Shown here piece after piece: positions 6,830 through 29,308 of a DNA stretch of 61,768 nt. Below the pieces are notes generated by a model. It saw only the letters and a program-made list of their open reading frames with translations. It was not told the origin of the DNA and did not search any database. A program made the translations under genes and the position numbers. The number at the start of each line of letters is the position of its first letter. Position 1 is the stretch's first letter. The stretch is from NCBI GenBank assembly GCA_007118495.1, contig SKRM01000028.1, positions 1 to 61,768 on the forward strand. Direction: 5' to 3'. The stretch is from Bacteroidales bacterium (GTDB taxonomy: Bacteria > Bacteroidota > Bacteroidia > Bacteroidales > UBA7960).

Positions 6830-6874
6830 ACACTTCCGACTTACCAGCTTAGCCATGGCGGGATAATGACCATG

Positions 6875-6925
6875 GCAAATTCGCATATTGTTGCTTTCGA
6901 AAATAGTGGTCATGGCTTGTTCCTG
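6875..6925 (+). repeat. 51-bp duplicate of hydrolase gene segment
   Basis: These bases repeat 1786-1836 in direct orientation with one difference (T at 1827, C at 6916). The original encodes the region around the catalytic His (SHIVAFENSGHGLFL). Identity ends sharply on both sides: before it there is a GCCATGG / CCATGGC inverted repeat (6852-6858 and 6870-6876), and after it unrelated sequence. It is not translated here. It lies between the lipoprotein gene (+) and the 3' end of the AsmA-like gene (-). Confidence 0.9.
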
Positions 6926-6941
6926 TTAGTAAAGAGAAATT

Positions 6942-10140: not shown

Positions 10141-10590
10141 ATGGATTTCATCTGTGAGTTCTTCAGGCCTGAGGCTGAGTGTAAAGGTCTTGGGGTTACT
10201 TGCCACAAAGATTTGCCATCAAACGAAGTCTTTGTCAGAACCGATCGTGAAAAACTATATGCCGTTCTGACCAATTTGGCCAAAAACGCCATTAAGTATA
10301 CTGATGCGGGAGAAATAGAACTTGGATACATCAAAAAGAGCGAAGTCATTGAGTTCTATGTAAAAGACACCGGTATCAGTATTCCGGCAGATCGGATTGA
10401 AGCGATTTTCGAGCGATTTGTCCAGGCCGATATCTCCGATAGAATGGCCCACCAGGGTGCCGGTTTGGGATTGGCCATCTCCAAAGCCTATGTGGAGATG
10501 CTTGGAGGAGAAATATGGGTTGAAAGTGAAAAAGGGAAGGGATCCACTTTTTATTTCACCCTGCCGCTTACAACTCACCCCGCCGACTGA
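10141..10590 (+). pseudogene. histidine kinase C-terminal fragment (HATPase only)
   Basis: 149 residues covering only the ATP-binding half of a sensor kinase: N box LTNLAKNAIKYT (Asn49), G1 box VKDTGISI (Asp76), F box IFERFVQAD, G2 box GAGLGLAISKAYVEMLGG, and the usual end STFYFTLPL. There is no phospho-accepting histidine domain and no sensor or membrane part. The last six residues (TTHPAD) are out of family and come from the transporter-gene remnant read in antisense. The ATG at 10141 is an internal Met of the former gene. A product could still bind ATP but could not phosphorylate itself in the usual way. Confidence 0.75.
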
Positions 10591-10863: not shown

Positions 10864-11469
10864 ATGAAAAATAGTTACAAATTTCTGATTGTGTTGCTTT
10901 TACTTGCCTTGATCGGCAGCACCGCACATGCACAATTTCAAGAAGGAGATCGCTTTATAAGCACCCAGCTGACCGGATTGGACATTTCAAAGTGGACTTT
11001 TTCAATGGAAGGCGATTCTGAAAGTTCTGATTTTACCCAGATTGGGCTAAACCTTTCAGGTGGGCAATTTATTCAAGAAGATCTGGCCATTGTGGTTACC
11101 CTGGGTTTTCTGTCGGTTCAGCCTGATGATGGTGATGGTTTAAAAGCGTATTCGCTTACCGGTGGAGTTCGCTACCATTTTGGGGGTCCTTTTTTTGGAG
11201 GAGCAGGACTGAATTACAGTAAAATTGATCTTGACAACGGTTCAAGCACAGCAAATGCCATGATGTTTGCACTTGAAGGAGGCTATTCATACTTTATTAC
11301 TGAAAGGCTTGCCGTTGAGCCAGGAGTAAACTATGCTATCAAATTTGCCGGTAAGATAAAAACAGGTGATAATGATGATATCTGGCTCAAAACTGACCCA
11401 GCCTCAGACGGTATTGGGTTTGACTTGAAGCGAATGGGTTTAACCGTTGGGATTACTTTCTTTTTCTGA
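10864..11469 (+). CDS. outer-membrane beta-barrel protein
   Basis: A 201-residue protein with a classical signal peptide (FLIVLLLLALIGSTAHAQ, cleavage after Ala) and a mature part of alternating beta strands ending in FFF, a typical outer-membrane C-terminus. Repeated patterns such as GGVRYHFGGPFFGGAGLNY and LEGGYSYFITERLAVEPGV place it with the OmpW/OMP_b-brl small-barrel class (8 strands by length). The gap before it (10591-10863) is AT-rich and probably carries the promoter for this gene and perhaps for the ACP gene 26 bp downstream. Whether it serves the following biosynthetic genes is unknown. Confidence 0.82.
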   Translation: MKNSYKFLIVLLLLALIGSTAHAQFQEGDRFISTQLTGLDISKWTFSMEGDSESSDFTQIGLNLSGGQFIQEDLAIVVTLGFLSVQPDDGDGLKAYSLTGGVRYHFGGPFFGGAGLNYSKIDLDNGSSTANAMMFALEGGYSYFITERLAVEPGVNYAIKFAGKIKTGDNDDIWLKTDPASDGIGFDLKRMGLTVGITFFF

Positions 11470-11495
11470 TTTGAATACCTAAAATACCAATACGA

Positions 11496-11861
11496 ATGAC
11501 TGTTGAAAGCAAATTAAGAGAGCTGCTGATGCCCGTTTTGGGTCTTACATCGGTGGATGAAATACAGCCTGATCACGCGCTGGTAAATGATCTGGGTGCA
11601 GAAAGCATCGATTTTGTAGAAATACTCTATGCCATTGAAACCAATTTTGGTGTAAAGATCAGTGTTCAGGAAATCTCCATGACCGATTACGGAGCCCAGG
11701 CTGCAGAGGATGGGGTGCTAACAGCAGAACTGGCCAAACAACTGAATGCTGATTTCAATACGGACCGCTTTCAACCGGGACAAACTGCCCGTGAATTATT
11801 CGAAACTTTCACCGTGCGTGAATTGGGAATAGTTATTCAGCGCAAAATGAACGAGCATTAA
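11496..11861 (+). CDS. acyl carrier protein, extended form
   Basis: 121 residues; ordinary ACPs have about 80. The phosphopantetheine site is clear: NDLGAESIDFVEI with Ser37. Helix II and the YAIETNFGVKIS segment are normal, but about 25-30 residues (roughly 62-92, DYGAQAAEDGVLTAELAKQL) lie between helix II and the C-terminal helix (FTVRELGIVI). It carries the growing acyl chain for the dehydratase, ketosynthase and ketoreductase encoded next to it; the stop and the next start are only about 11 bp apart. It is likely a dedicated ACP for a special product rather than the housekeeping one. Confidence 0.9.
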   Translation: MTVESKLRELLMPVLGLTSVDEIQPDHALVNDLGAESIDFVEILYAIETNFGVKISVQEISMTDYGAQAAEDGVLTAELAKQLNADFNTDRFQPGQTARELFETFTVRELGIVIQRKMNEH

Positions 11862-11872
11862 AGCAGTTGACG

Positions 11873-12352
11873 GTGAGATTTTATTTGATAGACAGGGTCA
11901 ACGAGGTTTGCCCTGAAAAGTACATTGAGGCCGTGAAATGCATCTCCATGAGCGAGGATGTATTCAATGAGCATTTTCCCGGGTATCCCCTCTTTCCTGG
12001 CTCACTGATCCTGGAAGGGCTGGCCCAGATGAGCGGCTTATTTCTGGAGTTCTGCCTGAAGCGGCGGGGAATGAAGGCAAAACGCGCTACCCTGACCCTG
12101 GTGACCCGCATGAAATTCCGTGCAGCGGTCAGACCCGGTGACCGTTTAATATACCGGGGTAGGGTGAAAGTGTTTTATCCGGATGATGGTTATGCGGTAA
12201 TGAAGGTTGAAGCCAGGTGTGATGAGAAACTGTATGCTGAAGGCGAGTTGATGTTTGGTTTTCTTGATGTGATGAACGATGAAATGGAACAAGCCACCGA
12301 ATCCTTGATGAAGATGGCTTTTACGAACGCAAAAATCGTAGAAAACAGGTGA
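11873..12352 (+). CDS. FabZ-like 3-hydroxyacyl-ACP dehydratase
   Basis: A hot-dog fold protein of 159 residues if the GTG at 11873 is used (MRFYLID is a usual family start); a TTG at 11867 is possible. The active-site signature HFPGYPLFPGSLILEGLAQ contains His34 and Glu48, 14 residues apart as in FabZ. It would dehydrate the beta-hydroxyacyl-ACP made by the KR encoded three genes downstream. The stop overlaps the next start (GTGA at 12349), implying coupled translation. Confidence 0.88.
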   Translation: MRFYLIDRVNEVCPEKYIEAVKCISMSEDVFNEHFPGYPLFPGSLILEGLAQMSGLFLEFCLKRRGMKAKRATLTLVTRMKFRAAVRPGDRLIYRGRVKVFYPDDGYAVMKVEARCDEKLYAEGELMFGFLDVMNDEMEQATESLMKMAFTNAKIVENR

Positions 12353-12930
12353 AGGTAATCTATAAGAAATATGCTGCCTCACAGGATATCCCTGTGTTTG
12401 ATTATGTGACCAAACGAAAGTTGACCAAATATCATACCCGCGAAACCATGGCTGCCATGGTGGCCATGGGGGAACTTTACAAAGATCAGAAGCCTCCTGC
12501 TGATATGCCCTTTTTCTACTCGACTGGAGAATTGGAATACCTCGACTATTACAGGGAGTTGGCCATGTCATTTACAGAAGAGGAGCGAAATACCCCTTTT
12601 ACAGGGTTGTTTGCTGTTGACAAAGCCATGCCCCGGATGTCACCCCTTGATCAATTCAAGATTATGCGGAACATGACGCAATGCCTCATATCCATAGAAT
12701 ATGGGTTAAAGGGAGACAATGCCCTGTTTCTGGATTCGCTGCAGGGTTTGCTGCTCGCTGTCAAAATCAGCGATTATGACGGTCCTGTTCTTATTGGTGC
12801 TGGCAAACTTTATTCAGATGGTAGTACAGCATGCGGTTTTGCAGAGATGCTGCCCGATGAGTTGACCAATTTCTCTATGGTATCGCCCCACGATGACCCC
12901 CTGGTATTTTTTAAACAAAACATCCAATAG
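12349..12930 (+). CDS. KS-like (chain-length-factor type) protein
   Basis: 193 residues, about half a ketosynthase. It looks like the Ketoacyl-synt_2 (PF13723) type of stand-alone beta-ketoacyl synthase N-terminal protein found in aryl-polyene and related clusters. The segment that should carry the active cysteine reads DNALFLDSLQGLLLA, with no Cys at the nucleophile place, so it is not expected to condense chains itself. Partners of this type may pair with the true KS to set chain length. The GTG start overlaps the dehydratase stop; the KS gene follows after 2 bp. Confidence 0.72.
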   Translation: MKVIYKKYAASQDIPVFDYVTKRKLTKYHTRETMAAMVAMGELYKDQKPPADMPFFYSTGELEYLDYYRELAMSFTEEERNTPFTGLFAVDKAMPRMSPLDQFKIMRNMTQCLISIEYGLKGDNALFLDSLQGLLLAVKISDYDGPVLIGAGKLYSDGSTACGFAEMLPDELTNFSMVSPHDDPLVFFKQNIQ

Positions 12931-12932
12931 CG

Positions 12933-14135
12933 ATGCGTGTTGTCATTACAGGTCTTGGTGTAAAGTCACCGTTGGGCTGCAACCTGAATGAAGTTTTTGA
13001 AAGTATTAAAACCGGCAAACCCTGTGTCGGGGCTTTAGAGAATATTGATGCCGGTGGTTTCCCCATGACTGCAGCCGGTGAGATACGCCAGCATGGAGAA
13101 GTGGTCAAAACACCTGGCAGTGTAGACAGAAAGATTCACTTTTTGAATCTGGCCATGGAGCAGATGCTGGCAGAACATAACATGTCAGACAAGTATTCGG
13201 GCAATGAGATGCTGATGAACCTGGGTACCGGACTTGACTACCTGGACAGCGAAAACTATTTTAATTCCAGGGAATATATGAAGCCCTTCGGCTCAGCGAT
13301 TGACTCCCACCAAAAGGCTGGTCGTTCAATGCGTGAGCTGGCGATAAAGTTCGGTATAAGTGGTGGTTGCAATATTTTCGTTGCAGCCTGTGCGGCATCT
13401 AGTCAGGCTGTCGGATTCTCCTATAAATTGTTAAAAAAGTCTTTGGCCAAAGCCGTTGTGACTGGTGGCAGTGACTCCATGACATCACACGCTGCTTATC
13501 TTGGTTTTTTTAAATTAGGTGCCATGGCACTGAGCGATGAAGGGCCAGCCACATGTAAACCTTTTGATCGTTACCGTACCGGTACGGTAGTGGGCGAAGG
13601 AGCTGTGACCATGACCATGGAAAGACTTGAATTCGCAACACCTGATCAGGTTATTATGGAAGTGCTGGGATATGGAAGTACGGCTGATGCATTTGCCATT
13701 ACAGATCCCGATCCTTCTGCTGATATGCTTGCCAGGTCAATCGAAATTGCGTTGAAAGATGCCGGTGTATCTCCTGATCAGATTGACTGTGCCCACTTGC
13801 ACGGAACCGGCACCCCAAAGAATGCACCTGCTGAATACCTGGCCCTGAAACGGGTGTTTGGTGACCGGGTAAAAGATTTGCCTGTATATTCAATGAAAGG
13901 ACAGATGGGCCACCTGATAGGAGCATGTGGTGCCATGGAACTGTTGGGTGTTGCTTATTCCCTGCTTTATCAGCAAGTGCCCCACACGGTTAATTTTAGT
14001 GAGTCTGATCCGGATGCCCCACTGTACGTTGTCAGCGACAAGCCATTGAGTATGCCTGTAACACATGTTTTGAAGCTTAATGCCTCATTTGGTGGACACA
14101 ATACAGCACTGATTCTGAAAAAATTTGAAGCATAA
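12933..14135 (+). CDS. beta-ketoacyl-ACP synthase (FabF-like)
   Basis: A 400-residue thiolase-fold condensing enzyme with a complete Cys-His-His triad: Cys153 in VAACAASSQAV, His290 in LHGTGTPKNAPAE, His327 in GQMGHLIGACGAME. It extends an acyl-ACP by two carbons using malonyl-ACP. The length is slightly below housekeeping FabF (about 410-415). With its 2-bp spacing to the preceding KS-like gene, a KS/CLF pair is likely. Its stop and the KR start overlap in TAATG (14133-14137). No malonyl transferase or starter ligase is encoded here, so malonyl-ACP must come from elsewhere. Confidence 0.92.
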   Translation: MRVVITGLGVKSPLGCNLNEVFESIKTGKPCVGALENIDAGGFPMTAAGEIRQHGEVVKTPGSVDRKIHFLNLAMEQMLAEHNMSDKYSGNEMLMNLGTGLDYLDSENYFNSREYMKPFGSAIDSHQKAGRSMRELAIKFGISGGCNIFVAACAASSQAVGFSYKLLKKSLAKAVVTGGSDSMTSHAAYLGFFKLGAMALSDEGPATCKPFDRYRTGTVVGEGAVTMTMERLEFATPDQVIMEVLGYGSTADAFAITDPDPSADMLARSIEIALKDAGVSPDQIDCAHLHGTGTPKNAPAEYLALKRVFGDRVKDLPVYSMKGQMGHLIGACGAMELLGVAYSLLYQQVPHTVNFSESDPDAPLYVVSDKPLSMPVTHVLKLNASFGGHNTALILKKFEA

Positions 14136-14839
14136 TGGAAAAAATTGTGATAACAGGTGCCAGTTCAGCTATTGGGATGGCCATCGCCCGCCGGTTGGCT
14201 GCTTTGGGGCGGCCCATGCTGCTTCATGTAAATAGCAAGCAAATGAAACCAGACAAGGAGCTGTCAAAAGCAGAGGTGGTGGTAGCGGATTTTACCAAAG
14301 AAGATGAATTGAATACATTTTTATCCCGGCTCGATGATGTATATATTTTGGTTCATGTGGCTGCCAGTATTGACACCCAGCTGCTGCCCATGATCAGTGA
14401 GGCATCCATTGACCGGATGATCTGCGTGAATATTTCGGCCTTCACCCGCATATGCCAGCGCGTGATCCCACCCATGGTTTCGCGAAGGAACGGAATCATT
14501 GTCAATGTATCGTCTGTGGTGGCTTCCAAAACTTACCGGGGTCAGTCGGTTTATGCGGGAACGAAAGCCTATATGGAAGCCTTTTCGCGGTCCATTGCCG
14601 CTGAATACGCAGCCAGGGGCATTCGGTGTAATTGCGTAGCTCCGGGTAGTATTGCCGGGGGATCACTTTCTTATCTGATGAAGAACATGGGTGACCGGAT
14701 CAAGGATGTGAATGCGTCAGGCAGGCTGGGTAGCCCGGAGGATGTGGCAGGTGCCGTTGCCTACCTGTGTAGTGCAGACGCTGCCTTCGTGAATGGCGAG
14801 GTGTTGCATGTTGATGGAGGACATTGGATTGGGCTATGA
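14135..14839 (+). CDS. FabG-like 3-oxoacyl-ACP reductase (SDR)
   Basis: A 234-residue short-chain dehydrogenase. Cofactor motif TGASSAIG (residues 7-14), catalytic Ser near 127 (VNVSS), Tyr140 and Lys144 in YAGTKAY, and the usual PGSIAGG and HVDGGHW end pattern. It would reduce the 3-keto group formed by the adjacent KS. It is the last gene of the run; the next gene, on the other strand, ends 51 bp away. There is no obvious terminator hairpin in that gap. Confidence 0.9.
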   Translation: MEKIVITGASSAIGMAIARRLAALGRPMLLHVNSKQMKPDKELSKAEVVVADFTKEDELNTFLSRLDDVYILVHVAASIDTQLLPMISEASIDRMICVNISAFTRICQRVIPPMVSRRNGIIVNVSSVVASKTYRGQSVYAGTKAYMEAFSRSIAAEYAARGIRCNCVAPGSIAGGSLSYLMKNMGDRIKDVNASGRLGSPEDVAGAVAYLCSADAAFVNGEVLHVDGGHWIGL

Positions 14840-14890
14840 TGCTAACAGGCTAAGTTTGTTCAGGATCATTTTCTTCAGGGCGACATCAGC

Positions 14891-15547
14891 CTAGGGGCTT
14901 TTCATCATCCGCTGAAAAAATGAATTATGCTCCTTCTCTTCTGCCATGGAACTTTCCGGTCCATGGCCAAAAAAAAATACCGTATCTTCAGGTAGGCTCA
15001 GGACTTCCTGTTTTAGGGTATGCATCAGTTGCAAGTAACCATCGTGTGAAAACCCAAGGCTGCCTTTGGTCAGTGTATCACCTGTAAACAGCCAATGTCG
15101 TGAAGGTTCGTAAAAACAAACTGAACCCATGGTATGTCCAGGCGTATGGATGACGGTCAGGTTTAACCCACCAAAAGAAAGTTGTTGACCCCCTGAAAAT
15201 GTCTTTGCTGCTGAAAGATCAGATCCATCAAGGTTCACCTTATGCAGGTGTGCATCATACTCGTTTTTACCCTGGTTTATTTCCTCCTTTTCATGGACGT
15301 AGATGTCAACTCCGTAGGTGTTGGAAACAAATCTCGTCCCGGCAATATGATCCATGTGTCCGTGGGTTAGCAAGATGGCCATAGGCTTAATATTCATCGC
15401 CTTGATAAAATCAGATAATATTTTTTGCTCTGCCACATGGTGGCATCCGGGATCGATTACGATACAGTGACCTGCCTGGTTCCAAAGAAGGAAGGAGTTA
15501 ACCTTTAACGGGTTGAAAATAAATTTTTTGAGCCGGATTCGCATCAC
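14891..15547 (-). CDS. metallo-beta-lactamase-fold hydrolase
   Basis: 218 residues with the full metal-binding set of the glyoxalase-II-like MBL branch: THGHMDHIAG, HTPGHTMGSV, FTGDTL and a C-terminal GHG. It is a cytoplasmic hydrolase, probably acting on thioesters or similar. It is the last gene of the long minus-strand operon; its start overlaps the nitroreductase stop by 4 bp. After its TAG the same frame stays open for 17 more codons to a second stop, without family support. A thioesterase-like role on the product of the convergent KS/ACP locus is possible but untested. Confidence 0.88.
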   Translation of the reverse strand: MMRIRLKKFIFNPLKVNSFLLWNQAGHCIVIDPGCHHVAEQKILSDFIKAMNIKPMAILLTHGHMDHIAGTRFVSNTYGVDIYVHEKEEINQGKNEYDAHLHKVNLDGSDLSAAKTFSGGQQLSFGGLNLTVIHTPGHTMGSVCFYEPSRHWLFTGDTLTKGSLGFSHDGYLQLMHTLKQEVLSLPEDTVFFFGHGPESSMAEEKEHNSFFQRMMKSP

Positions 15548-16155
15548 GCTGACCGCTTGTTTAATGGAACCCCAACCGGAATGATGGCTCCGATCTCCTG
15601 GCCGGGAGGTAACTCAAGCATTTTCTGTAGTTTTTGCCCGGCCACCAGCCCACCAGTCATATAGCATGCCCCCAGGCCCATGCTTTGGGCTCCAAGCAAT
15701 ATGAGCATGGCCACACAGGATATCGATTTCACCATGTTATCTCTCTCCATGGTTGCCATTTCAGGGGTGCAATGATTTCCCAACAAAATCTGCAATGTAG
15801 GGGAGACCCGGAAAACCGGGATAAAGAGTGCCGGAGCCTTTTTGAACAGGGAAAAATAGTTGGCGTACCCCCCGAACTTGTCTGCATATTCCGGTAAAAT
15901 ATAATTTTTTAATTGTGCCGATTCCTGATCTACAGCACTGGCCATTCGGTCAATTTTTTCCCTGTCGGTGATCACGTGGATGTTCCAGTTCTTTCTCCCT
16001 GAAGCAAAAGGCGCTGTGCGACCAATATCCACCAGGCGCTGAATTTGTTCATGCGTCAGGGGGGTGGTTGCAAAGTCGCGGATACTTTTTCTGCTTTTAC
16101 AAAGTGTATACAACGAGCAATAATCCATGAGCTGTTTTTTTTGCAATATTACCAT
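15544..16155 (-). CDS. nitroreductase family protein
   Basis: 203 residues (194 if the second Met is used). The N-terminal SRKSIRDFATTPLT is the FMN-binding opening of nitroreductases, followed by GRTAPFASGRKNW and, near the end, the GAQSMGLGACYMTGG segment. These flavoproteins reduce nitro groups, quinones or enones with NAD(P)H. The start overlaps the permease stop by 7 bp, so it belongs to the exporter operon, an unusual partner for an ABC exporter. It could modify or detoxify the exported compound; this is inference from position only. Confidence 0.86.
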   Translation of the reverse strand: MVILQKKQLMDYCSLYTLCKSRKSIRDFATTPLTHEQIQRLVDIGRTAPFASGRKNWNIHVITDREKIDRMASAVDQESAQLKNYILPEYADKFGGYANYFSLFKKAPALFIPVFRVSPTLQILLGNHCTPEMATMERDNMVKSISCVAMLILLGAQSMGLGACYMTGGLVAGQKLQKMLELPPGQEIGAIIPVGVPLNKRSA

Positions 16156-17222
16156 TTTTCAGTTGAACGTATCATCAGTACTACCGCCGTACCTGAAAGC
16201 ATCACCCCCGTTAGAGTCATCAAAACAATCTGGCTGAGCATGGTATGAATTTCAAGCCCTTTTAGTATGATCAATCTGGATGTGTCGACCATGAAATACA
16301 CAGGGTTTATAAAGCGCGTCAGCTGAGCCCATAGCGGCATACTACTCAGGTGTGAGAACATGGTGCTCATCAGAATCATAGTCAGCAGGGTGAAGATAAG
16401 CAGGTAGACTGCTTGCACCTGGTTGCGCGAAATTACTGCAATCAAATAACCCAGACTCAGCAAGGGAAAGGAAAAAAGGATGGCCATCGTGAGGTAATGC
16501 CACACGCTTCCCGCCACTGTGAGTCCATATGTGATCCGGCAAAATACCAGGCTAATGACTGCCACAGCCAGGCAAACCAAAGTCATATAAATGTATTTTC
16601 CCATAATGTAGACAAAGCGGTTTAGTGAGGTGGAATTGAATTGCTGCAATACTCCTGCCTCTTTTTCTGCAACAATATTTAAAGCCATCAGGCAGCTGCC
16701 GATGATGGTCTGCACCAGTACCAGCAGTGACACCAGGTAATAGAAAAGCTGGCTATCTGTCAGGTTGAATAAGCGGTGCACCCTGATCACCTGTTCACCG
16801 TCATCCAGCAACAGCCTGACAGATCTGAATACATCATTCTGCGATTTTTGCGGATGGGTACCATCTGAGAAGAACTTTAACGGCCCGGCATCATCATGCG
16901 CCAGCTGGCGTTCGTAATGTGCGGGAATGACCACTACAATATCCACCTGCCCTGTCCGGATGCCTTCTTCGGCCAGGTCTATACCAGCGTATGCAACCAC
17001 CTTGATGTAATCAGGTGAGTGTGTCAAAAGCGTGGCATAGTGGCGGGAGAGGGTAGAGGAGTCATGATCTACTATCCCCACAGTTATTTGTGTGTTATTT
17101 TCAAGGGCAAGGGGAATCACCCCCAATATAATGAGTGGATTCACAAAAATCATGAAAAGCAGCACCTTGTTCCTGGAAAGTTGCAGGAATTCCTTTTTCA
17201 ATATGCCGGGTATCATGCTCAT
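16149..17222 (-). CDS. ABC-2 type permease (YbhR/YbhS-like), second
   Basis: 357 residues: one membrane helix near the N-terminus (VLLFMIFVNPLIILGVIPLAL), a periplasmic domain of about 130 residues, then five helices, the usual ABC-2 membrane topology. It is paired with the preceding permease gene (4-bp overlap), which suggests a heterodimeric channel, as with YbhS and YbhR in E. coli. It works with the two ATPases encoded just upstream. Confidence 0.88.
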   Translation of the reverse strand: MSMIPGILKKEFLQLSRNKVLLFMIFVNPLIILGVIPLALENNTQITVGIVDHDSSTLSRHYATLLTHSPDYIKVVAYAGIDLAEEGIRTGQVDIVVVIPAHYERQLAHDDAGPLKFFSDGTHPQKSQNDVFRSVRLLLDDGEQVIRVHRLFNLTDSQLFYYLVSLLVLVQTIIGSCLMALNIVAEKEAGVLQQFNSTSLNRFVYIMGKYIYMTLVCLAVAVISLVFCRITYGLTVAGSVWHYLTMAILFSFPLLSLGYLIAVISRNQVQAVYLLIFTLLTMILMSTMFSHLSSMPLWAQLTRFINPVYFMVDTSRLIILKGLEIHTMLSQIVLMTLTGVMLSGTAVVLMIRSTEKW

Positions 17223-18343
17223 ATCCTTTTCAGATAATTCTTTCTAAAACCGATTCTGGCCAGTCCATAGGCCACTGTGCTTTGGATGGTGAGGTTGATC
17301 AATGCCCAGGCATTTTCTGTCAATCCGGTTGCCCTGAACACAACCCCCCGGTAGGCCTCAATAAAGGAAGCACCTGGGGATATTTCAGCCAATGGTTGTA
17401 TGATTTGGGCCATGGTAGATACAGGGAAAATGAATCCCGAAAGAAACAGATTGGGTGTGAATAAAAAGAACCAGCAGCCCACCAGTAACTCCAGTTCGGT
17501 TCTGACCCAGGCAGCAATTAGCAGACCCAGGGCCATGGAGTTAAATATAAATACCAGACATATCAGAATAAACATGGCGGGGCTGCCTGCCACATGTATG
17601 TTGAAAATCCATTCAGTCAACACCCAGATAGAAAACAAATGAAATAGAGAAATACCCAGATAAACCATGCCCTTGCCTGCAACAATTTCGTGGATACCGG
17701 CCGGTGTAAGCATCAACAACCGGTTGGTACCCAGCTCTTTCTCTCTGTTGATGCTCAGAGAAAGCATAATGGCCGAAATAAGTACAAGAATGATCATCAG
17801 TAGCCCCGGAATGGGAACCACCTGGTTTTTAAGGTCAGGGTTAAACAGATATGAAACTTTATAGCCCGCTGCTTGAATGTCGGGGCTGTATTTCTCAGTT
17901 TGCCGGGAGGTGAAATCTCTGAAGATGTTTGCCAGGTTGTTTTCAATGGCTGTTGCCATCAGCGGATCTGTGGCGTCAACGAAAAGGTCAACTTCAGTCA
18001 TGTTATGCATGGCCTGGCTGCTGAATCCCTTTGGTATGAAAAGTACCAGTTTTTCCGTTCCACGGCTCAATGATGCATATATTTCTTCGACCTGATTCAG
18101 ATAACCATTAAAATAAAAAGCGGGTGAAATGTGCATGTATTCAACCAGTTCTTGCGACATGGGGGTGTTGTCCTGATCAAGTACAGTGAAGGGAATCTCG
18201 TTGAGCTCAAATGAGAGTGCATAACCAAACATAACTACGATCACAGCAGGCATGATCAGCAAAATCAGCATGCTGAACTTGTCTCTGCTGATGCTGATGG
18301 CCTCTTTTTTGGCGATGCTTGTTATGATGGTGATCCGATTCAT
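17219..18343 (-). CDS. ABC-2 type permease (YbhR/YbhS-like), first
   Basis: 374 residues with the same plan as the following gene: helix 1 at about 22-44 (MLILLIMPAVIVVMFGYAL), a large periplasmic loop, then helices from about residue 180 (VPIPGLLMIILVLISAIMLSL, INREKELGTNRLLM). The segment REKELGTNRLLMLTPAG is a typical coupling-helix region of this family. Start and stop overlap the neighbouring genes by 4 bp each. With the second permease it forms the membrane channel of a tripartite drug- or metabolite-type exporter. Confidence 0.9.
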   Translation of the reverse strand: MNRITIITSIAKKEAISISRDKFSMLILLIMPAVIVVMFGYALSFELNEIPFTVLDQDNTPMSQELVEYMHISPAFYFNGYLNQVEEIYASLSRGTEKLVLFIPKGFSSQAMHNMTEVDLFVDATDPLMATAIENNLANIFRDFTSRQTEKYSPDIQAAGYKVSYLFNPDLKNQVVPIPGLLMIILVLISAIMLSLSINREKELGTNRLLMLTPAGIHEIVAGKGMVYLGISLFHLFSIWVLTEWIFNIHVAGSPAMFILICLVFIFNSMALGLLIAAWVRTELELLVGCWFFLFTPNLFLSGFIFPVSTMAQIIQPLAEISPGASFIEAYRGVVFRATGLTENAWALINLTIQSTVAYGLARIGFRKNYLKRI

Positions 18344-19056
18344 GGTTGTGACATAAAAAAGAGTTGCACCAGTCCCTTGCCTCCTGCCAGGCTATCAAGA
18401 TATTCCGGACTGCCCTGGGCTTTAATTCGCCCGTTCTCCATCAGAATTAACCGGTCGCAGTACCAGGCCTCGTCCAGGTAATGTGTACTCATCACTACGG
18501 TGGTTCCCTGGTAGGCAGTCCGGTATATTTGCTGCCAGATATCTGTCCGGCTCAGGGGATCAAGTCCACTGGTGGGCTCATCCAAAAAAAGCAGGCGTGG
18601 TGAGTGCAATACTGAAATTACAAAAGCAAGCATCTGACGCAAACCCGAAGGCAGTTCTGAAGCAAGTTTATGTCGGTGGCTGCCCAGATTGACCATTCCC
18701 TGCAGTTCATTCCAGCGGGTGGTGAGCTGTTTCCGGTTCATTCTGTAGATGCTTCCATAGAACTCAATGTTTTCTGTCACGGTCATGTTTTCCAACAACG
18801 ATACCGATTGACTCATGTATCCGATTTGGTGCCGTATAGAGCCACTCTCTGCTGCAATATCAAACCCGGCCACCTGCCCACTCCCTTCATTTGGTTTCAG
18901 GGTGCCGCACAACATTTTGATCAGGGTGGTTTTTCCTGCTCCATTGGCACCCAGTATCCCCAATATCTCACCCTCCTCAACAAACATACTGACCCGGTCA
19001 ACTGCTTTCAGTGAACCAAAACTTTTGCCAAGCTCATGGGTGGTAATTATTTCCAT
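18340..19056 (-). CDS. ABC transporter ATPase, second
   Basis: 238 residues, one nucleotide-binding domain: Walker A GANGAGKTT, Q-loop region GYMSQSVSLLEN, Walker B LLFLDEPTSGLD, and H-loop MSTHYLDEA. The signature motif reads LPSGLRQM instead of LSGGQ; in the other ATPase it is LSGGMKQK. Two ATPases encoded side by side match the two halves of the fused YbhF protein of E. coli. It overlaps the preceding ATPase gene by 10 bp. Confidence 0.92.
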   Translation of the reverse strand: MEIITTHELGKSFGSLKAVDRVSMFVEEGEILGILGANGAGKTTLIKMLCGTLKPNEGSGQVAGFDIAAESGSIRHQIGYMSQSVSLLENMTVTENIEFYGSIYRMNRKQLTTRWNELQGMVNLGSHRHKLASELPSGLRQMLAFVISVLHSPRLLFLDEPTSGLDPLSRTDIWQQIYRTAYQGTTVVMSTHYLDEAWYCDRLILMENGRIKAQGSPEYLDSLAGGKGLVQLFFMSQP

Positions 19057-19973
19057 GATGTAACGGGTTGTTTGATTTGTGAGAGATGGCGGATGAAAAC
19101 ATCTTCTATGCCTGGGCTTACCCGTTGAACCACTGCAGATGTAAGTCGGGCATTACGGCAAAATGACCGTATGTCATCTTCTTTTATCTGATCATCCAGC
19201 GGAATGCGGACACTTTTTCCCGAAAGATAGCAAGTATGCATCTTCGCATTATTTTTCAACTCTGTGAAAAGTTTATAGGGATGCAAACCGGTAACTGAAA
19301 CCAGTTCCCTGTCGTAGTCATCAAGCAAACGTTGGGGGGTATCGAGCAGAAGTTGTTCCCCCTGGTGAAGAAAAAGAACCTGGTCCATGTTGTTTACCTC
19401 GCTGAGGTAATGGGTGCTTGCCAGGATGGTGACTCCCCGCTTGCGCAACTTGCTCAGTTCTTGCCAGAGTTCGTGCCTTGACCGGGGGTCAATGCCTGTG
19501 GTAGGTTCATCCAAAAATAAAATGGCCGGATCATGCACCAGGGCGCAACATACAGCAAGTTTTTGTTTCATTCCCCCTGACAAGTACCGTGTCTGACTGG
19601 CGGCAAAAGGCGACAGGCTTTCCCACAGGGAGGCATGATTTTTATGAATATGTGTCACTGAACAACCGTAAATGCGGGCGAAAAAAGACAAGTTCTCTTC
19701 AGTGGTCAGTTCTTCGTATAAAGAAAAACGTCCAGGCACATATCCGATTACCTGGTGGATTTCCTTTTTGTGGAGACGCACATCCATCCCGCAGATTTTT
19801 AGCTCCCCTTTGAAGTTTGGAAGCAGGGTGGTCATGATCTCAAACAGTGTTGATTTTCCGGCACCATTTGCTCCCATTATTCCGAAAATACTGCCTTCGG
19901 GCACCTGGAAACTGATATCATGAAGTGCCCGTTGTTTGCGGTATGATTTAGATATGTGCCGGGCAACGATCAT
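19047..19973 (-). CDS. ABC transporter ATPase, first
   Basis: 308 residues: Walker A GANGAGKST, signature LSGGMKQK, Walker B ILFLDEPTTGID, H-loop STHYLSEV, and an extra C-terminal domain of about 90 residues (from about 215) often seen in ATPases of ABC-2 exporters. It starts inside the end of the HlyD-like gene (4-bp overlap). Together with the next ATPase it would power the two-permease channel. Confidence 0.92.
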   Translation of the reverse strand: MIVARHISKSYRKQRALHDISFQVPEGSIFGIMGANGAGKSTLFEIMTTLLPNFKGELKICGMDVRLHKKEIHQVIGYVPGRFSLYEELTTEENLSFFARIYGCSVTHIHKNHASLWESLSPFAASQTRYLSGGMKQKLAVCCALVHDPAILFLDEPTTGIDPRSRHELWQELSKLRKRGVTILASTHYLSEVNNMDQVLFLHQGEQLLLDTPQRLLDDYDRELVSVTGLHPYKLFTELKNNAKMHTCYLSGKSVRIPLDDQIKEDDIRSFCRNARLTSAVVQRVSPGIEDVFIRHLSQIKQPVTSWK

Positions 19974-20890
19974 AGACCAGAATTTCTGTTAACGACAAAA
20001 CGCACTTCGCCGGGCATTCCGGGTTTGATGCTGCCGTCGTTCGGTACCCTGATTTTTACCTCATAATGTTGTTCGGTCCGGTTCTCACGTGTTTGCACCT
20101 GGGTAGGAATGAACTGGGGTTTCTGTGCAATGCTTGCCACTGTTCCCCTGTATTGCTTCATGTCTTTTCCGGGAATGTCAATACTGACCTCCATTTCTCC
20201 GCCTATCTCAAGCATTGAAAGCTGACTGCCCGCAAACCATGCCCTGAATATCATTTCATCTATATTGGCCAGTTTATAAAGCGGATGACCAACTGCCACG
20301 TATTGATGTAACCCTGCATAGCGCGTCAGGACGACACCGTTTTCAGGGTTTGCGATAATACAGCGTTGAATCTTATCCTCAAGCAATTGTATCTGCACAT
20401 GCAGTGGCTCCATTTGCGCTCTGATGGCTGATGTCTCTTGCCTTAAGGCAGCAAGGGCAGCTGTAAGCTCACTCCGGGCTATAGCCAGCTGATCATCTAT
20501 CTGATCAAGCATCTGCCGGTCGGCGCTTCCAAGTTCAACCAGCCTGCTGACGCGTTCGCGTTCACGTTCCAGTGCTTCTGTTTTTCGACTTACTGATGCG
20601 GTTTGCATTTCAATGTCAGGGATGGTTGCCTGAAGGGCTGCGATGTTGGCTTCAGCCATCTGTTTTTGCAGCCCAAGCTGTATTGTATCAATCAAGCCCA
20701 CGATCTCTCCCTTTTTGTATGAGATTCCTTCTTCGATATCCAGCCAGACAATCCGTCCGTCACCTTCGGCCGGAATGATCCACTCATCTGCCTCAAAATT
20801 TCCGTACATCACAGGTTCGGATGTCTCAGCGCATCCTGCGAGCAGGGCTGCAATGAAGAAAAGCAAGGGGAATATCTTTGAATATTGCAT
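19970..20890 (-). CDS. HlyD-like membrane fusion protein (lipoprotein)
   Basis: 306 residues with a lipoprotein signal (LFFIAALLAGC, Cys20). It then has the periplasmic-adaptor layout: a first lipoyl half (DGRIVWLDIEEGISYKKGEIV), a long coiled coil of about 110 residues rich in Glu, Ala, Leu and Gln, a second lipoyl half (ANPENGVVLTRYAGLHQYV), and a beta-barrel domain near the end (PGMPGEVRFVVN). It links the inner-membrane ABC exporter to the TolC-like channel encoded 4 bp upstream. The closest known arrangement is YbhG. Confidence 0.92.
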   Translation of the reverse strand: MQYSKIFPLLFFIAALLAGCAETSEPVMYGNFEADEWIIPAEGDGRIVWLDIEEGISYKKGEIVGLIDTIQLGLQKQMAEANIAALQATIPDIEMQTASVSRKTEALERERERVSRLVELGSADRQMLDQIDDQLAIARSELTAALAALRQETSAIRAQMEPLHVQIQLLEDKIQRCIIANPENGVVLTRYAGLHQYVAVGHPLYKLANIDEMIFRAWFAGSQLSMLEIGGEMEVSIDIPGKDMKQYRGTVASIAQKPQFIPTQVQTRENRTEQHYEVKIRVPNDGSIKPGMPGEVRFVVNRNSGL

Positions 20891-20894
20891 AGGT

Positions 20895-22199
20895 TTATTG
20901 CTTTAATTGTTCAATGATGGCATTGTCGCGCCTGAGCGATGCCCTGACCATTTCTACTTCATGACGAACCTTGCTGATGCGGGCCTGCGATTCGGCTGAG
21001 AGTGCCTGTAACAGATCAGAGGCCGAAGCCACACCTTCGGTTAACATAGATTCATATTCTTTACGGATAAGTGTTTGTTTTTCGATCAGCTCAGCATCAC
21101 GGCTGATCAGCCTGTCATATTTAATTACCTCACCATTTAGTTCTTGAAACAGCAGTTGTTCTTGTCTTCGCAAATTGTCATAATAGATTAAAAGTTGACT
21201 TTCCTGCACGGTCAGGGCACGGATGTTTCTCTGGTGGTCGCGCCAGGCTGTAGCAGGCACCCTGAGTGTCATTCCAATGATCCAATAGGTGTCAAATTCA
21301 TTTGAAAACAAATTGAGCCCGGGTCGGGCATATCCGGCCACTGCTGAAGCATCAAGCCGGGGCATGGCTGATGACCTTGACAGTTGCCTGGTCTGTCTAA
21401 GTTTTTGTTTCTCAAGTTTGAGCTGCCTGAACAAGGGATCTTCATTTCTGGTTCCGGACATCTGTACGTCGGGTAGCAGGAGCGAGTCATCAGGGGTGAT
21501 GACCAGGCCTGTCAATGCTGAGAGCATATGACGAAAGCGTTCCTGATCTGCCAGCAGAGCCTCCTGATGTGCCCTGATATCTGCCAGTGCCGCTTCCATT
21601 TCAAGGAGCTCTACCCTGTACACTTTGCCCTCACTGTATAGTGATTCAAGCTGTCTGAACCTGGTCTGAAGTATGTCTTCTCTGACCTGAAGAATTTGTA
21701 TCCCCTTACCCAAAAGGATGGAGTTTAAAAAGAGTTCATCCACGGCGTTTTCAAGTATGCGTTGCTGCCGTTCAACCTTTGATGCGTTTATTTGTCTTTC
21801 AGTTTCTTCAAGTGCACTTTTGCTGTTGTACTCTCCACCGTCATACAGCGATTGCCTGGCGTAGATACCTGTGCGGTACTGGTCTCTTACCATGGGTCTG
21901 AAGTCAATGCCAAAATCATCAGACGATGAAAATCTGGGAACATCTGACAGGTATGAAGCTGTGGCAAACCCTCCTGCTTCAGGTGTGATCAGTTTGCGTA
22001 GCATGATTTGCTGGGCAGCTGCAGCAGATTTAACCAGATTCATCTGTTCTTCAAAAGCGTGGTGTTCTGAGGCTGCTGCCCGGCATTCAGCCAACGAAAT
22101 CAGCCGCTGTGCAGAAAGTGGACAAAATGCAACAAACACCCATAACCAGGGCAGGAGCACTGCAGTTAACAGCAGATTGGGAGCTGATCTGTTATGCAT
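20895..22199 (-). CDS. TolC-like outer-membrane efflux protein
   Basis: 434 residues with a signal peptide (AVLLPWLWVFVAFCPLSAQ) and two long heptad-rich coiled-coil halves typical of the outer membrane factor family, including RQILENAVDELFLN and the mirrored KQTLIRKEYESMLTEGVASAS. It forms the outer-membrane exit of the exporter. Its start lies 7 bp after the preceding lipoprotein gene. The order OMF, adaptor, ATPases, permeases is that of a complete type of ABC-driven tripartite pump. Confidence 0.92.
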   Translation of the reverse strand: MHNRSAPNLLLTAVLLPWLWVFVAFCPLSAQRLISLAECRAAASEHHAFEEQMNLVKSAAAAQQIMLRKLITPEAGGFATASYLSDVPRFSSSDDFGIDFRPMVRDQYRTGIYARQSLYDGGEYNSKSALEETERQINASKVERQQRILENAVDELFLNSILLGKGIQILQVREDILQTRFRQLESLYSEGKVYRVELLEMEAALADIRAHQEALLADQERFRHMLSALTGLVITPDDSLLLPDVQMSGTRNEDPLFRQLKLEKQKLRQTRQLSRSSAMPRLDASAVAGYARPGLNLFSNEFDTYWIIGMTLRVPATAWRDHQRNIRALTVQESQLLIYYDNLRRQEQLLFQELNGEVIKYDRLISRDAELIEKQTLIRKEYESMLTEGVASASDLLQALSAESQARISKVRHEVEMVRASLRRDNAIIEQLKQ

Positions 22200-22206
22200 A
22201 GCTTAT

Positions 22207-22623
22207 TTATTTATTACTTGAATGATTCCGCTGATCAGTTTCATTTGCCCTGATAAACCGCACCTTGGTCAACTGCCCGAACATGGCTGTCTCCAAAACA
22301 AGTACATCGTCAGTCAGGGTTATTATGTTTCCCTTGAAGTTATTGAAGCCTTCATCGGTAAAATTCACGAAAATGCTCTTCCCTTGTGTACTCCAGCTCC
22401 CGGCCACATATGCTTCATTGCAAGAATCAAAGATGGTGAAGTCATTGCTTTTATAAATCCACATCCAGCTTCCTTCATAGCAAGAATCAACATTTTCAGG
22501 AGGACTGGCCTGGTCATATTCCCAGCGACCGGTAAAGTCGGGGATGCTTTCACCTTCATCACAAGAGACATTTACCAGCAAAAAGAAAAGGAATACAACC
22601 AGAGGTGACAGCCGGGAATTCAT
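22207..22623 (-). CDS. small lipoprotein, lipocalin-like
   Basis: 138 residues from the ATG at 22623; an upstream start at 22659 would put 12 extra residues before the signal. Lipobox VNVSC (Cys21). The mature part is beta-rich with a start typical of lipocalin-like Bacteroidetes proteins (DFTGRWEYDQ, then WIYKSNDFTIFD) and two further Cys in short turns. It is the first gene of the exporter operon, suggesting a periplasmic or outer-membrane lipid- or product-binding accessory. That function is inferred from fold resemblance and position. Confidence 0.7.
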   Translation of the reverse strand: MNSRLSPLVVFLFFLLVNVSCDEGESIPDFTGRWEYDQASPPENVDSCYEGSWMWIYKSNDFTIFDSCNEAYVAGSWSTQGKSIFVNFTDEGFNNFKGNIITLTDDVLVLETAMFGQLTKVRFIRANETDQRNHSSNK

Positions 22624-22808
22624 GCAGTCATGTATTCGTTTTATCCTGCAATATAGCAATATAATCTAAAATATAAATGAAAACAAACACTGCAAATATT
22701 GATAAACGCGACAAAAAATTGTATATTTAGTAGAGATATACAGAATTCGTAAAAAACAGGAAACCCAAAAGCTTTTAGAGCAGGTAAAAAAGTAAATAAA
22801 ACAAAACA

Positions 22809-23492
22809 ATGAAATTCAATATAACAATCAAAAGCGTCACCACTGTCGAAGAAATCACTGACTATTGGCATGATCAAGATTTTATCCACTTATTGGAACA
22901 ATTTGATTTTCCCGAAGCCAAAACAGTGAAGCCAGAAAATTTAAGGGAAATGTTATATATGGCTATTACAGATTTTGAACCCAATGAAGCTGCCGGGATA
23001 GTACTAACCTATAAGCTTTCTGAAAGATTAAATGAAGGCCAGATAGATCAGGTTTCAAATGATATGTTACTTGATAAGGTATGTGAAGAGTTTCCTGAAA
23101 TTGACTTACATTATGATTTATTCAATATTAACCAATTGCTGTATAAGGCTTACAATGGAAAATTTCCAAATGCAAAAGCAACTGTTGCAGATTTTTCTAT
23201 GGTTTCAAATAATGGTTACGACAAAGAAATCACGAAAGAAATTGTTCTAAAATCATTCAATAACGGAATCTCTGACAGAAATCTCATTAAAAGGTTATTT
23301 ACCGAACAAATGAGCACAGATAAAGAATTTGCAGAAGCAGAAGCAGTTTTGTGGGAATTAATTAAAAAAGATTCTACTGATTTTACCTTGATCACTTCAG
23401 AATATTGGTTAAAAAAAGAAGATTTTGTAGCTTCTGAATTTGAGGGGGAATGTCTGCTGCCAGAGGAAGATGAAGAACAAAATCCCGAATAA
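22809..23492 (+). CDS. hypothetical protein
   Basis: A 227-residue soluble, acidic protein without a signal peptide or membrane segment. Visible segments: an N-terminal beta strand (MKFNITIKSVTTVEEI), a helical middle (FEPNEAAGIVLTYKLSERL), and an acidic C-terminal tail (LLPEEDEEQ). I do not recognise the family. It is divergent from the exporter operon (185 bp to the lipoprotein start) and 108 bp upstream of the ArsP-type permease gene on the same strand. Its AT-richer codon use compared with the exporter genes is noticeable by eye. Confidence 0.7.
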   Translation: MKFNITIKSVTTVEEITDYWHDQDFIHLLEQFDFPEAKTVKPENLREMLYMAITDFEPNEAAGIVLTYKLSERLNEGQIDQVSNDMLLDKVCEEFPEIDLHYDLFNINQLLYKAYNGKFPNAKATVADFSMVSNNGYDKEITKEIVLKSFNNGISDRNLIKRLFTEQMSTDKEFAEAEAVLWELIKKDSTDFTLITSEYWLKKEDFVASEFEGECLLPEEDEEQNPE

Positions 23493-23600: not shown

Positions 23601-24872
23601 GTGGAGCTTAAAAAGGAACTTAAGATATTTGGATATTTGCTTGCATTTTTCCTGGCCGCTTATTTTTTGCCAATTGGAGAAAGTCGCTTTGATAATGCCG
23701 TGTATGAGGCACTTGAATTGTTGCGGTGGTACGCCCGGGAACATGTGCTTCTATGTTTGATCCCTGCATTCTTTATTGCCGGTGTAATTGCCGTATTTGT
23801 CAGCCAGGCATCTGTAATTAAGTATTTTGGGGCAAAAGCAAAAAAATGGAAAGCTTACATGGTCGCATCTGTTTCAGGAATCATTCTGGCTGTCTGTTCG
23901 TGTACAATTTTACCTTTATTTTCAAGTATCCATAAGCGCGGTGCCGGATTGGGGCCTGCAATAGCTTTTTTATACAGCGGGCCAGCCATCAATATACTTG
24001 CTATCATATTAACGGCAAGGATTCTTGGCTGGGAATTGGGCCTGGCCAGGATAATAGGAGCCGTGGTTTTTAGTGTTGTAATTGGTTTGCTGATGGCTTA
24101 CATATTTAGAAAAGAAGAGCGGCGGCGAAGTGAAGAACAGATGAATATGCCCGATCCCCAAGAGACCAGGCCTTTGTGGCAAACATCTTATCATTTTTTT
24201 GTTCTGGTATTCATTTTAATCTTTGCAAATTGGGGAACAACTGAAATTGGCGGCATCAGCAAATGGCATATTACTGCGTTTTTTGGTGTCTTGTTTCTGT
24301 TTTCTTTAATCTACGTATTGAAAATAAAGTGGCAGCATGTAACACTGGTTGCCCTTCCCGTAATTGTCTCCGGCTTCTTTTTCAATGCTCCTGAAATCCC
24401 ATTTGTATTAGCTGTTGCAGGGCTCGTGTTATTAACGGGCTTGAATAAAGGTGAACCCCGCGAATGGTTGTATGAAAGCTGGGGCTTTACAAAACAAATC
24501 ATGCCCTTGCTGGCTGTCGGGGTATTGGTGGCCGGTTTGCTTCTCGGAACAGAAAGCGGCGAAGGGCTAATTCCCAATAGATGGGTTGAATCACTGGTTG
24601 GAGGAAATTCTTTGCAGGCAAATCTGTTTGCTTCTGTTTTTGGAGCTTTTATGTATTTTGCAACACTTACTGAAGTACCCATATTGCAGGGTCTGATCGC
24701 TTCGGGAATGGGGAAGGGATCCGCCCTGGCTTTGCTACTGGCAGGTCCGGCACTATCTCTGCCCAATATGCTGGTAATCCACAATGTACTGGGGACTAAA
24801 AAGACCACAGTATTTATTATATTAGTGGTAATTATGGCCACCATTTCTGGCTTAATATATGGTGCTGTCTGA
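23601..24872 (+). CDS. ArsP/DUF318-type permease
   Basis: A 423-residue membrane protein (GTG start) of the PF03773 permease family. About ten hydrophobic segments. The hallmark CSCTILPLFSSIHKRGAGLG is present at about residues 98-117, and its second-half counterpart around TLTEVPILQGLIASGMGKG, both followed by GPA-type motifs (SGPAINI, AGPALSLPN). The CSC cysteines and the paired thioredoxin-like protein point to thiol-reactive substrates; characterised ArsP proteins export trivalent organoarsenicals. Here the substrate is inferred only. The mini-thioredoxin gene follows after 81 bp. Confidence 0.9.
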   Translation: MELKKELKIFGYLLAFFLAAYFLPIGESRFDNAVYEALELLRWYAREHVLLCLIPAFFIAGVIAVFVSQASVIKYFGAKAKKWKAYMVASVSGIILAVCSCTILPLFSSIHKRGAGLGPAIAFLYSGPAINILAIILTARILGWELGLARIIGAVVFSVVIGLLMAYIFRKEERRRSEEQMNMPDPQETRPLWQTSYHFFVLVFILIFANWGTTEIGGISKWHITAFFGVLFLFSLIYVLKIKWQHVTLVALPVIVSGFFFNAPEIPFVLAVAGLVLLTGLNKGEPREWLYESWGFTKQIMPLLAVGVLVAGLLLGTESGEGLIPNRWVESLVGGNSLQANLFASVFGAFMYFATLTEVPILQGLIASGMGKGSALALLLAGPALSLPNMLVIHNVLGTKKTTVFIILVVIMATISGLIYGAV

Positions 24873-24953
24873 TCAACCTGATTCTGAAAAAGTATGTAAG
24901 ATGCGGCATCAGGCTACTTTTAAAGTTAATTGAATAACTTATAACCACACAAA

Positions 24954-25190
24954 ATGGAAATTAAAGTTTTAGGCACAGGCTGCATGAAATGCAAGCAGAC
25001 AGAAAAAATCGTTCGTGAAGTTGTTGAAGAAAATAAATTAAACGCCACAATTACCAAAGTTGAGGATATCATGGATATCATGAACTACAATATAGTGTCA
25101 ACCCCGGCAGTGGTGATTGACGAGAAAGTAGTTATCAAAGGGCGTGTTCCGTCAAAAAATGATGTACTCAGTGCTCTTGGATTAACTTAA
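24954..25190 (+). CDS. small CxxC thioredoxin-like protein
   Basis: 78 residues of the TM0996/MTH895-type glutaredoxin-like family: beta strand MEIKVLGTG, active-site Cys10-Met-Lys-Cys13, then a helix, the cis-proline region STPAVVID, and a final helix. This is the complete minimal thioredoxin fold. Genes of this type are often linked with PF03773 permeases, as here, so a redox service to the permease or its cargo is probable. Confidence 0.92.
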   Translation: MEIKVLGTGCMKCKQTEKIVREVVEENKLNATITKVEDIMDIMNYNIVSTPAVVIDEKVVIKGRVPSKNDVLSALGLT

Positions 25191-27945: not shown

Positions 27946-27953
27946 TTACCATT

Positions 27954-29237: not shown

Positions 29238-29308
29238 ATGTATATGGTTGTTTGTAAGATGTTTTTTCTGTTCTTATGCAGAAGCACCTTACTGTTTCAT
29301 TATGCGCA

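Follow-up and report, generated by a model that had tools for sequence, protein, structure and literature searches.

A compact ketosynthase cassette of Bacteroidales that is probably joined to its own ABC exporter

Among the Gram-negative products of type II polyketide synthase (PKS) and fatty acid synthase (FAS)-like chemistry, aryl polyenes and flexirubins are the best known, and both have been placed in the outer membrane (PMC8253772, PMC3992019). As described for aryl polyenes, the core consists of a ketosynthase (KS), a half-size partner, a ketoreductase (KR), a dehydratase (DH) and acyl carrier protein (ACP), with a chain-length factor (CLF) of a single thiolase fold (PMC8358021, PMC8253772). 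A second truncated KS partner is AmcG, which with the KS AmcF is reported to carry out one condensation and a ring closure for cispentacin, and probably for coronafacic acid (PMC10698177), while the rhizobial very-long-chain fatty acid (VLCFA) cluster of the acpXL region is described as carrying ACP, DH, KS-like, KS and reductase genes in that order (PMC11901934). Here we describe a locus that shares features with each of these, at positions 10864-22623 of contig SKRM01000028.1 from a Bacteroidales genome (GCA_007118495.1; 2.63 Mb, 78 contigs, 98% complete). The window analyzed is this one complete contig of 61,768 nucleotides. We propose, at a probability of roughly 60%, that the locus is a self-contained biosynthesis-and-export cassette in which a 193-aa open reading frame (ORF), ORF4, would act as a half-size KS partner, a metallo-beta-lactamase (MBL)-fold hydrolase would release the product, and an ATP-binding cassette (ABC) pump would export it.

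That the synthesis and export genes make up one linked system is the part of this proposal in which we have high confidence. In the window, genes for an outer-membrane barrel, ACP, DH, ORF4, KS and KR converge on a minus-strand run that reads, from start to end, lipocalin-like, TolC, HlyD, ATPase 1, ATPase 2, permease 1, permease 2, nitroreductase and MBL, the last of these ending 51 bases past KR, and no consensus terminator was matched between the two convergent operons. The initial annotation held that only adjacency linked the halves and proposed looking for their independent occurrence in relatives; what we find is the opposite. In a genome from another family of the order (G467), a 35 kb contig carries TolC (7209), HlyD (8618), ATPase 1 (about 9517), ATPase 2 (10431), permease 1 (11141) and permease 2 (12382), and continues on the same strand with nitroreductase (13461), ACP (14096), DH (14461), ORF4 (14934), KS (about 15514) and KR (16720-17424). 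Its genes overlap or are separated by small gaps, with the nitroreductase stop, for example, lying over the ACP start, and they may be transcribed as a single unit. The MBL gene (17497-18195) is convergent to this run, and the barrel gene (6533-7099) is divergent and beside TolC. Such a run rules out chance adjacency.

The distribution of the two halves points the same way. With ORF4 as a marker of synthesis and permease 2 as a marker of export, we searched 247 genomes drawn from the order. ORF4 is present in three: the window's own genome, G467, and a second genome of the window's genus (G632). Permease 2 has matches in 97 of the 247 at E 1e-30, among which the own genome, G632 and G467 stand out at 761, 508 and 224 bits, with the next best at 150, so that the close permease homologue and ORF4 occur in the same 3/247 genomes. 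It is because of this shared distribution and the co-directional run in G467 that we regard the halves as linked. A general multidrug pump that came to lie beside an acyl synthesis operon by chance might be suspected, since such pumps are common, as the 97 permease matches attest, but this pump lineage was found only together with the KS set (3/3) and shares one run with it in G467, and we consider such an origin highly improbable.

The conservation of both gene order and sequence in the relatives goes beyond chance. Identity between the window and G467 is 63% for ACP, 57% for DH and KS, 56% for KR, 51% for ATPase 2, 48% for nitroreductase and ORF4, 46% for ATPase 1 and HlyD, 43% for permease 1, 39% for permease 2, 33% for TolC, 32% for MBL and 26% for the barrel; the last three values are weak, and orthology for these genes therefore rests on position too. 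The values for G632 are 76% (ACP), 72% (nitroreductase), 67% (ORF4), 66% (each permease), 59% (barrel) and 45% (MBL). There the KS arm and the permease-permease-nitroreductase-MBL segment are split between two small contigs (4,324 and 3,261 bases) in the window's order, with the barrel adjoining ACP, and because the halves are on separate short contigs the spacing between them is not readable.

The cassette is rare, judging from how low the marker and KS counts are. A phylum-wide draw gave ORF4 in 1/395 genomes, the own genome, and an ORF4 profile at E 0.01 matched in 17/393 genomes of the order, where the 14 besides the three are short, weak matches, ten of them in FabF-like ORFs. KS searches at E 1e-50 found 2/47 family genomes, both within the 21 of the genus, and a KS profile at E 1e-62 found 2/295 class genomes, the second match being FabF-like. 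Many of these genomes are incomplete drafts, and the absences are therefore soft. A match in Zixiibacteriota (L007) was set aside as an ORF that by eye is unlike a KS.

Every ORF that the initial annotation had named was found, none interrupted, and its picture of ACP, DH, KS, KR and barrel genes converging on an exporter operon holds. Pfam assigns every cassette protein save ORF4, the match to the lipocalin-like protein falling under the cut-off. On the forward strand lie the barrel protein (10864-11469, 201 aa, PF13505), the ACP (11496-11861, 121 aa, PF00550), a FabZ-like 3-hydroxyacyl-ACP dehydratase (11867-12352, PF07977), ORF4 (12349-12930), a dedicated beta-ketoacyl-ACP synthase (12933-14135, PF00109 and PF02801) and a short-chain dehydrogenase/reductase resembling 3-oxoacyl-ACP reductases (14135-14839, PF13561 and PF00106), with successive gaps of 26, 5, -4, 2 and -1 bases. 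All three copies retain the Cys, both His and the Lys of KS, the His and Glu motifs of DH (HFPG and LEGxAQ), the LGAESID serine of ACP and the Ser-Tyr-Lys motifs of KR (TGASxxIG, SSV, YAGTK), while the MBL hydrolase has THGHxDH, GDTL and GHG in the window and in G467 (in G632 its copy is cut off). Residues at these positions are known to be catalytic in the respective families. In the ACP, PF00550 spans only residues 6-60 and is followed by a conserved C-terminal extension (the FETFTVR region). A separate ACP, a KS with Cys-His-His, a KR and a DH of the general type II PKS/FAS-like line are thus all found, and a reducing core of this line with ORF4 as KS partner is quite likely.

A tentative view of KS kinship comes from a quick tree of 37 KSs, with SH-aLRT as its only support and a warning from the program that long branches meet. 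The KSs of the three cassettes group together (100) on a branch 2.8 long, outside 12 FabFs (94) and outside 22 KSs encoded beside PF13723-type partners (99), although by raw score FabF is nearest. We rejected one candidate relative, the KS of G064 (215 bits), which by eye looks like FabF and has an RNase III-like gene as its neighbor. KS relatives on plasmids came to 20 records, all below 60% identity, the six listed lying at 31-33%, and in one Streptomyces plasmid region with such a relative the annotation lists fabD, acpS and three genes of the KS family.

The cassette might also be a reduced aryl-polyene or flexirubin cluster whose remaining genes lie elsewhere in the genome. The core is alike in its KS with a candidate half-size partner (ApeO-ApeC), KR (ApeQ), FabZ/FabA-like DH (ApeI/ApeP) and ACP (ApeE/ApeF) (PMC8358021, PMC8253772), the KR and DH are of FAS type, and in neither set is an enoyl reductase recognized. 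Against such an origin, the locus has a single ACP and lacks the acyl-ACP synthetase, methyltransferase, acyltransferases, second KS and second ACP, with no ORF for an aryl starter ligase or acyl-ACP synthetase in 10864-22659. No tyrosine ammonia-lyase or coumarate ligase is encoded in the same interval either, the rest of the genome not having been searched for these flexirubin enzymes. The pump is an ABC-2/HlyD/TolC set and not the RND exporter with LolA/LolB-like proteins described for aryl polyenes (PMC8253772). ORF4 is half-length, has no Cys at the nucleophile position and is like the N-terminal half of FabF, yet it has no significant match to PF13723-type partners; neither ORF4 nor the KS is close to the Bacteroidia PF13723-type partners and KSs, whose 22 clusters were not themselves identified as either type, and ApeO/ApeC entered the comparison only as the KS match 6qsp in the PDB. 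At E 1e-8, PF13723 finds nothing in the own genome. We therefore hold a reduced cluster to be very improbable, and the view of the initial annotation, of one biosynthesis-plus-export system whose gene content differs from that of aryl-polyene, flexirubin and dialkylresorcinol clusters, is supported.

ORF4 had been called KS-like, and this holds only for a remote kinship to the first half of a KS. It has no significant match in Pfam or NCBIfam, and single-sequence searches (Pfam, PHROGs and others) found no kin. A three-row profile of ORF4 matches a mitochondrial KS over residues 86-130 (E 0.037), and against a profile of 11 FabFs it scored 54.1 at a probability of 93%, the best of 100 column shuffles reaching 22.5. 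Ten of the 11 had themselves been found through the ORF4 profile, which counts against that score, and the comparison was therefore repeated with two independent FabFs, from the own genome and G064, giving 32.8 at a probability of 29% (best of 100 shuffles 21.2). In an ungapped alignment by eye, the shared stretch stops just short of the nucleophile; at the Cys column, two of the three ORF4 proteins have Leu and the third has Gly. ORF4 thus appears to resemble the N-terminal half of FabF, and it is a candidate counterpart to the half-size CLF of aryl-polyene synthases. The strand-helix order of its AlphaFold models would fit one thiolase-type half, which carries little weight with pLDDT values near 45.

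A KS with a truncated partner could also serve a single condensation and ring closure, as AmcF-AmcG does. ACP, DH-like enzyme, KS and a small motif-less partner recur in that system as described, malonyl transfer there is thought to come from FabD (PMC10698177), as we suppose here, and the AmcB, AmcE and AmcF models do score the ACP, the DH (a hot-dog enzyme in both systems) and the KS. Those scores, however, are far under the family cut-offs (29.7 against 80, 42.3 against 140 and 176.9 against 325 bits), and ORF4 matched no AmcG model, the presence of such a model in the library being unchecked. The locus encodes no AmcC, no AmcH-like adenylating acyltransferase or ligase and no aminotransferase, and it adds a KR, a nitroreductase and an exporter. 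A cispentacin-like pathway is, in our estimation, a faint prospect.

On the minus strand, the MBL-fold hydrolase (14891-15547, PF00753) is GloB-like, its best NCBIfam model being GSH_gloB, below cut-off. Type II PKSs are known to include thioesterases of the MBL fold, among them ActIV and MrqD, which share with the cassette enzyme the fold, THxHxDH and the setting (PMC10265476), so a release enzyme is likely present; the likeness is one of fold and motif, the thioesterase activity is predicted, and the nearest model is a hydroxyacylglutathione hydrolase. The initial annotation had listed starter ligase, acyltransferase and thioesterase as missing, which remains so for the first two at the locus, but the hydrolase is now a candidate for the third. 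Next to it is a nitroreductase-family flavoenzyme (15544-16155, PF00881), whose role is the least certain in our scheme.

The exporter that the initial annotation had recognized is confirmed, with Pfam assignments to OEP, HlyD_3, two ABC_tran and two ABC2_membrane_3 domains, beside Nitroreductase and Lactamase_B for the two enzymes. It comprises ABC-2 permease 2 (16149-17222) and permease 1 (17219-18343), both PF12698; ATPase 2 (18340-19056, signature LPSGxRQ) and ATPase 1 (19047-19973, signature LSGGMKQ), both PF00005; an HlyD-family adaptor (19970-20890, PF13437); and a TolC-like outer-membrane factor (20895-22199, PF02321). A small lipocalin-like lipoprotein gene (22207-22623, with its ATG start at 22623) belongs to the same run, but its PF13648 match (19.5 against a cut-off of 22.4 bits) falls short, TolC in G467 has no such neighbor, and we place the gene outside the conserved set. 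E. coli has exporters, YbhGFSR and YhiI-RbbA-YhhJ, built from an HlyD adaptor, two ATPase domains and two ABC-2 permeases. The cassette has this make-up, together with its outer-membrane factor, and differs in that ATPases and permeases are separate genes, the adaptor is lipoprotein-like (lipobox-like N-terminus by eye, AGC in the window and SGC in G467) and the whole is linked to biosynthesis. The RbbA model has matches to each permease and each ATPase, with permease 1 matching its permease part and ATPase 2 having DrrA and RbbA as best models, below cut-offs, and no NCBIfam equivalog cut-off is reached. The adaptor's best model, also below cut-off, is NF002939 (PRK03598), which we take to be the YbhG model.

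An envelope role of the kind served by the rhizobial VLCFA system, with the ABC machine moving a lipid, would account for the barrel and the lipoprotein-like adaptor, for a KS nearest FabF by score, and for an order of carrier, dehydratase, KS-like, KS and reductase genes nearly identical to that described for rhizobia (PMC11901934). The rhizobial cluster, however, has two full-length KS genes and LpxXL, while ORF4 is half-length (193 aa) against 1,197 bp for fabF2XL by the coordinates in that paper (PMC11901934), and the cassette has no acyltransferase. Furthermore, a channel of TolC type speaks for a product released from the cell, and the MBL hydrolase would free an acid. A VLCFA-like system thus seems unlikely.

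Several observations weigh against the cassette as we propose it. It was found in only three genomes, with its halves on opposite strands in the window and on separate contigs in G632. ORF4 has an invariant Cys112, 19 residues before the Cys column, and may therefore have some catalytic activity of its own. Its scores fell below the best shuffle both for PF13723-type KS partners from Bacteroidia (19.3 against 21.1) and for the KSs of such partners (21.5 against 24.0), it did not match its own neighbor KS, its models are poor (pLDDT 45.5 and 45.9), and fold searches with them gave no match at E 0.001. The best Pfam model for the KR, PF13561, is named enoyl-ACP reductase; ketoreduction is favored by its YxxxK motif and by its top NCBIfam model (3oxo_ACP_reduc, below cut-off), and for this reason we do not regard any enzyme of the set as an enoyl reductase. 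Among the enzymes, MBL is conserved least well (45% and 32% to G632 and G467), and the cassette has no starter ligase.

The surroundings of the cassette differ between genomes. Judged by eye from translations, G467 has helicase- and valyl-tRNA synthetase-like genes before it, and after it a regulator of the AraC type and a long stretch of genes resembling those for polysaccharide degradation (L010, 103-16652). The window has a histidine-kinase piece, an AI-2E transporter, an ArsP permease and a desaturase. The kinase piece (10141-10590), a 149-aa ORF just upstream of the barrel with only the ATPase part (PF02518), looks like a remnant. Farther out, an ArsP_1-type permease (PF03773) is followed by a 78-aa Thioredoxin_3 protein (PF13192) in 23601-25190, the fatty acid desaturase (25222-26319, PF00487) lies about 3 kb past the cassette, none being noticed beside the cassette in G467, and 26488-32716 holds in one run an MFS_2 transporter, a weak GH17-like lipoprotein and a 1135-aa ORF, perhaps for glucan use. 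Two nearer genes, encoding a 524-aa protein (6942-8516) and an AT-rich (G+C 0.329) 227-aa protein (22809-23492), both with no Pfam match, turned up in none of the 21 genus genomes except the own genome, so the borders of the cassette cannot be read from an empty site. G+C content is not decisive either in the window (cassette 0.47, left flank 0.407, right flank 0.44) or in G467 (0.566, with flanks of 0.536 and 0.551). A search for mobile or phage origin gave no ORF4 relative in viral contigs (13 stretches matched the pattern, none confirmed) or plasmids and no PHROGs match (best E 0.34), and no defence family was found among the 10 of 15 proteins scanned.

In the scheme we favor for the cassette, FabD of primary metabolism would load malonyl onto the dedicated ACP; elsewhere, the own genome has one FabD-type match, one phosphopantetheinyl transferase match and one other KS. 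The KS would condense together with ORF4, its proposed half-size, CLF-like partner that lacks the nucleophilic Cys; the KR would reduce, and the FabZ-like enzyme would dehydrate. Repeated cycles would leave double bonds and yield a polyene or an unsaturated or hydroxy acid, a guess made because no dedicated enoyl reductase is recognized in the set, although a housekeeping FabI could act, as described for cispentacin (PMC10698177). The flavoenzyme might set or remove a double bond or otherwise modify the product, the MBL hydrolase would cut its thioester to ACP, and the lipoprotein-like adaptor, the pump of two ATPases and two permeases, and the TolC-like channel would carry this same product out. 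Most likely, then, the cassette uses a dedicated carrier protein to build a molecule of fatty-acid-like or polyene type and a dedicated exporter to pump it out; a polyene-like product in particular is a possibility that we rate below even odds. A short acyl compound had been suggested earlier, but nothing in the sequence fixes chain length.

Overall, the locus combines a compact form of type II PKS/FAS-like synthesis with a pump of known type, very probably as one functional system. Keyword searches of the literature found no paper on such a Bacteroidales polyene or ketosynthase cluster, which holds for those word searches only. More tentatively, and just short of an even chance, the cassette could represent a separate type II PKS/FAS-like lineage, with an ORF4-family partner, a long-extension ACP, an MBL hydrolase and a flavoenzyme, that co-evolved with its exporter as a transferable Bacteroidales cassette for an undescribed secreted unsaturated or hydroxy acid. 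ACP, DH, ORF4, KS and KR form a minimal set that lends itself to reconstitution in vitro, and ORF4 would add a case to the truncated KS partners ApeC and AmcG, which bear on how chain length or cyclization is set. Set beside the outer-membrane products best known from this chemistry, such a small synthase, equipped with a TolC-type pump of its own, would suggest a product that is secreted.

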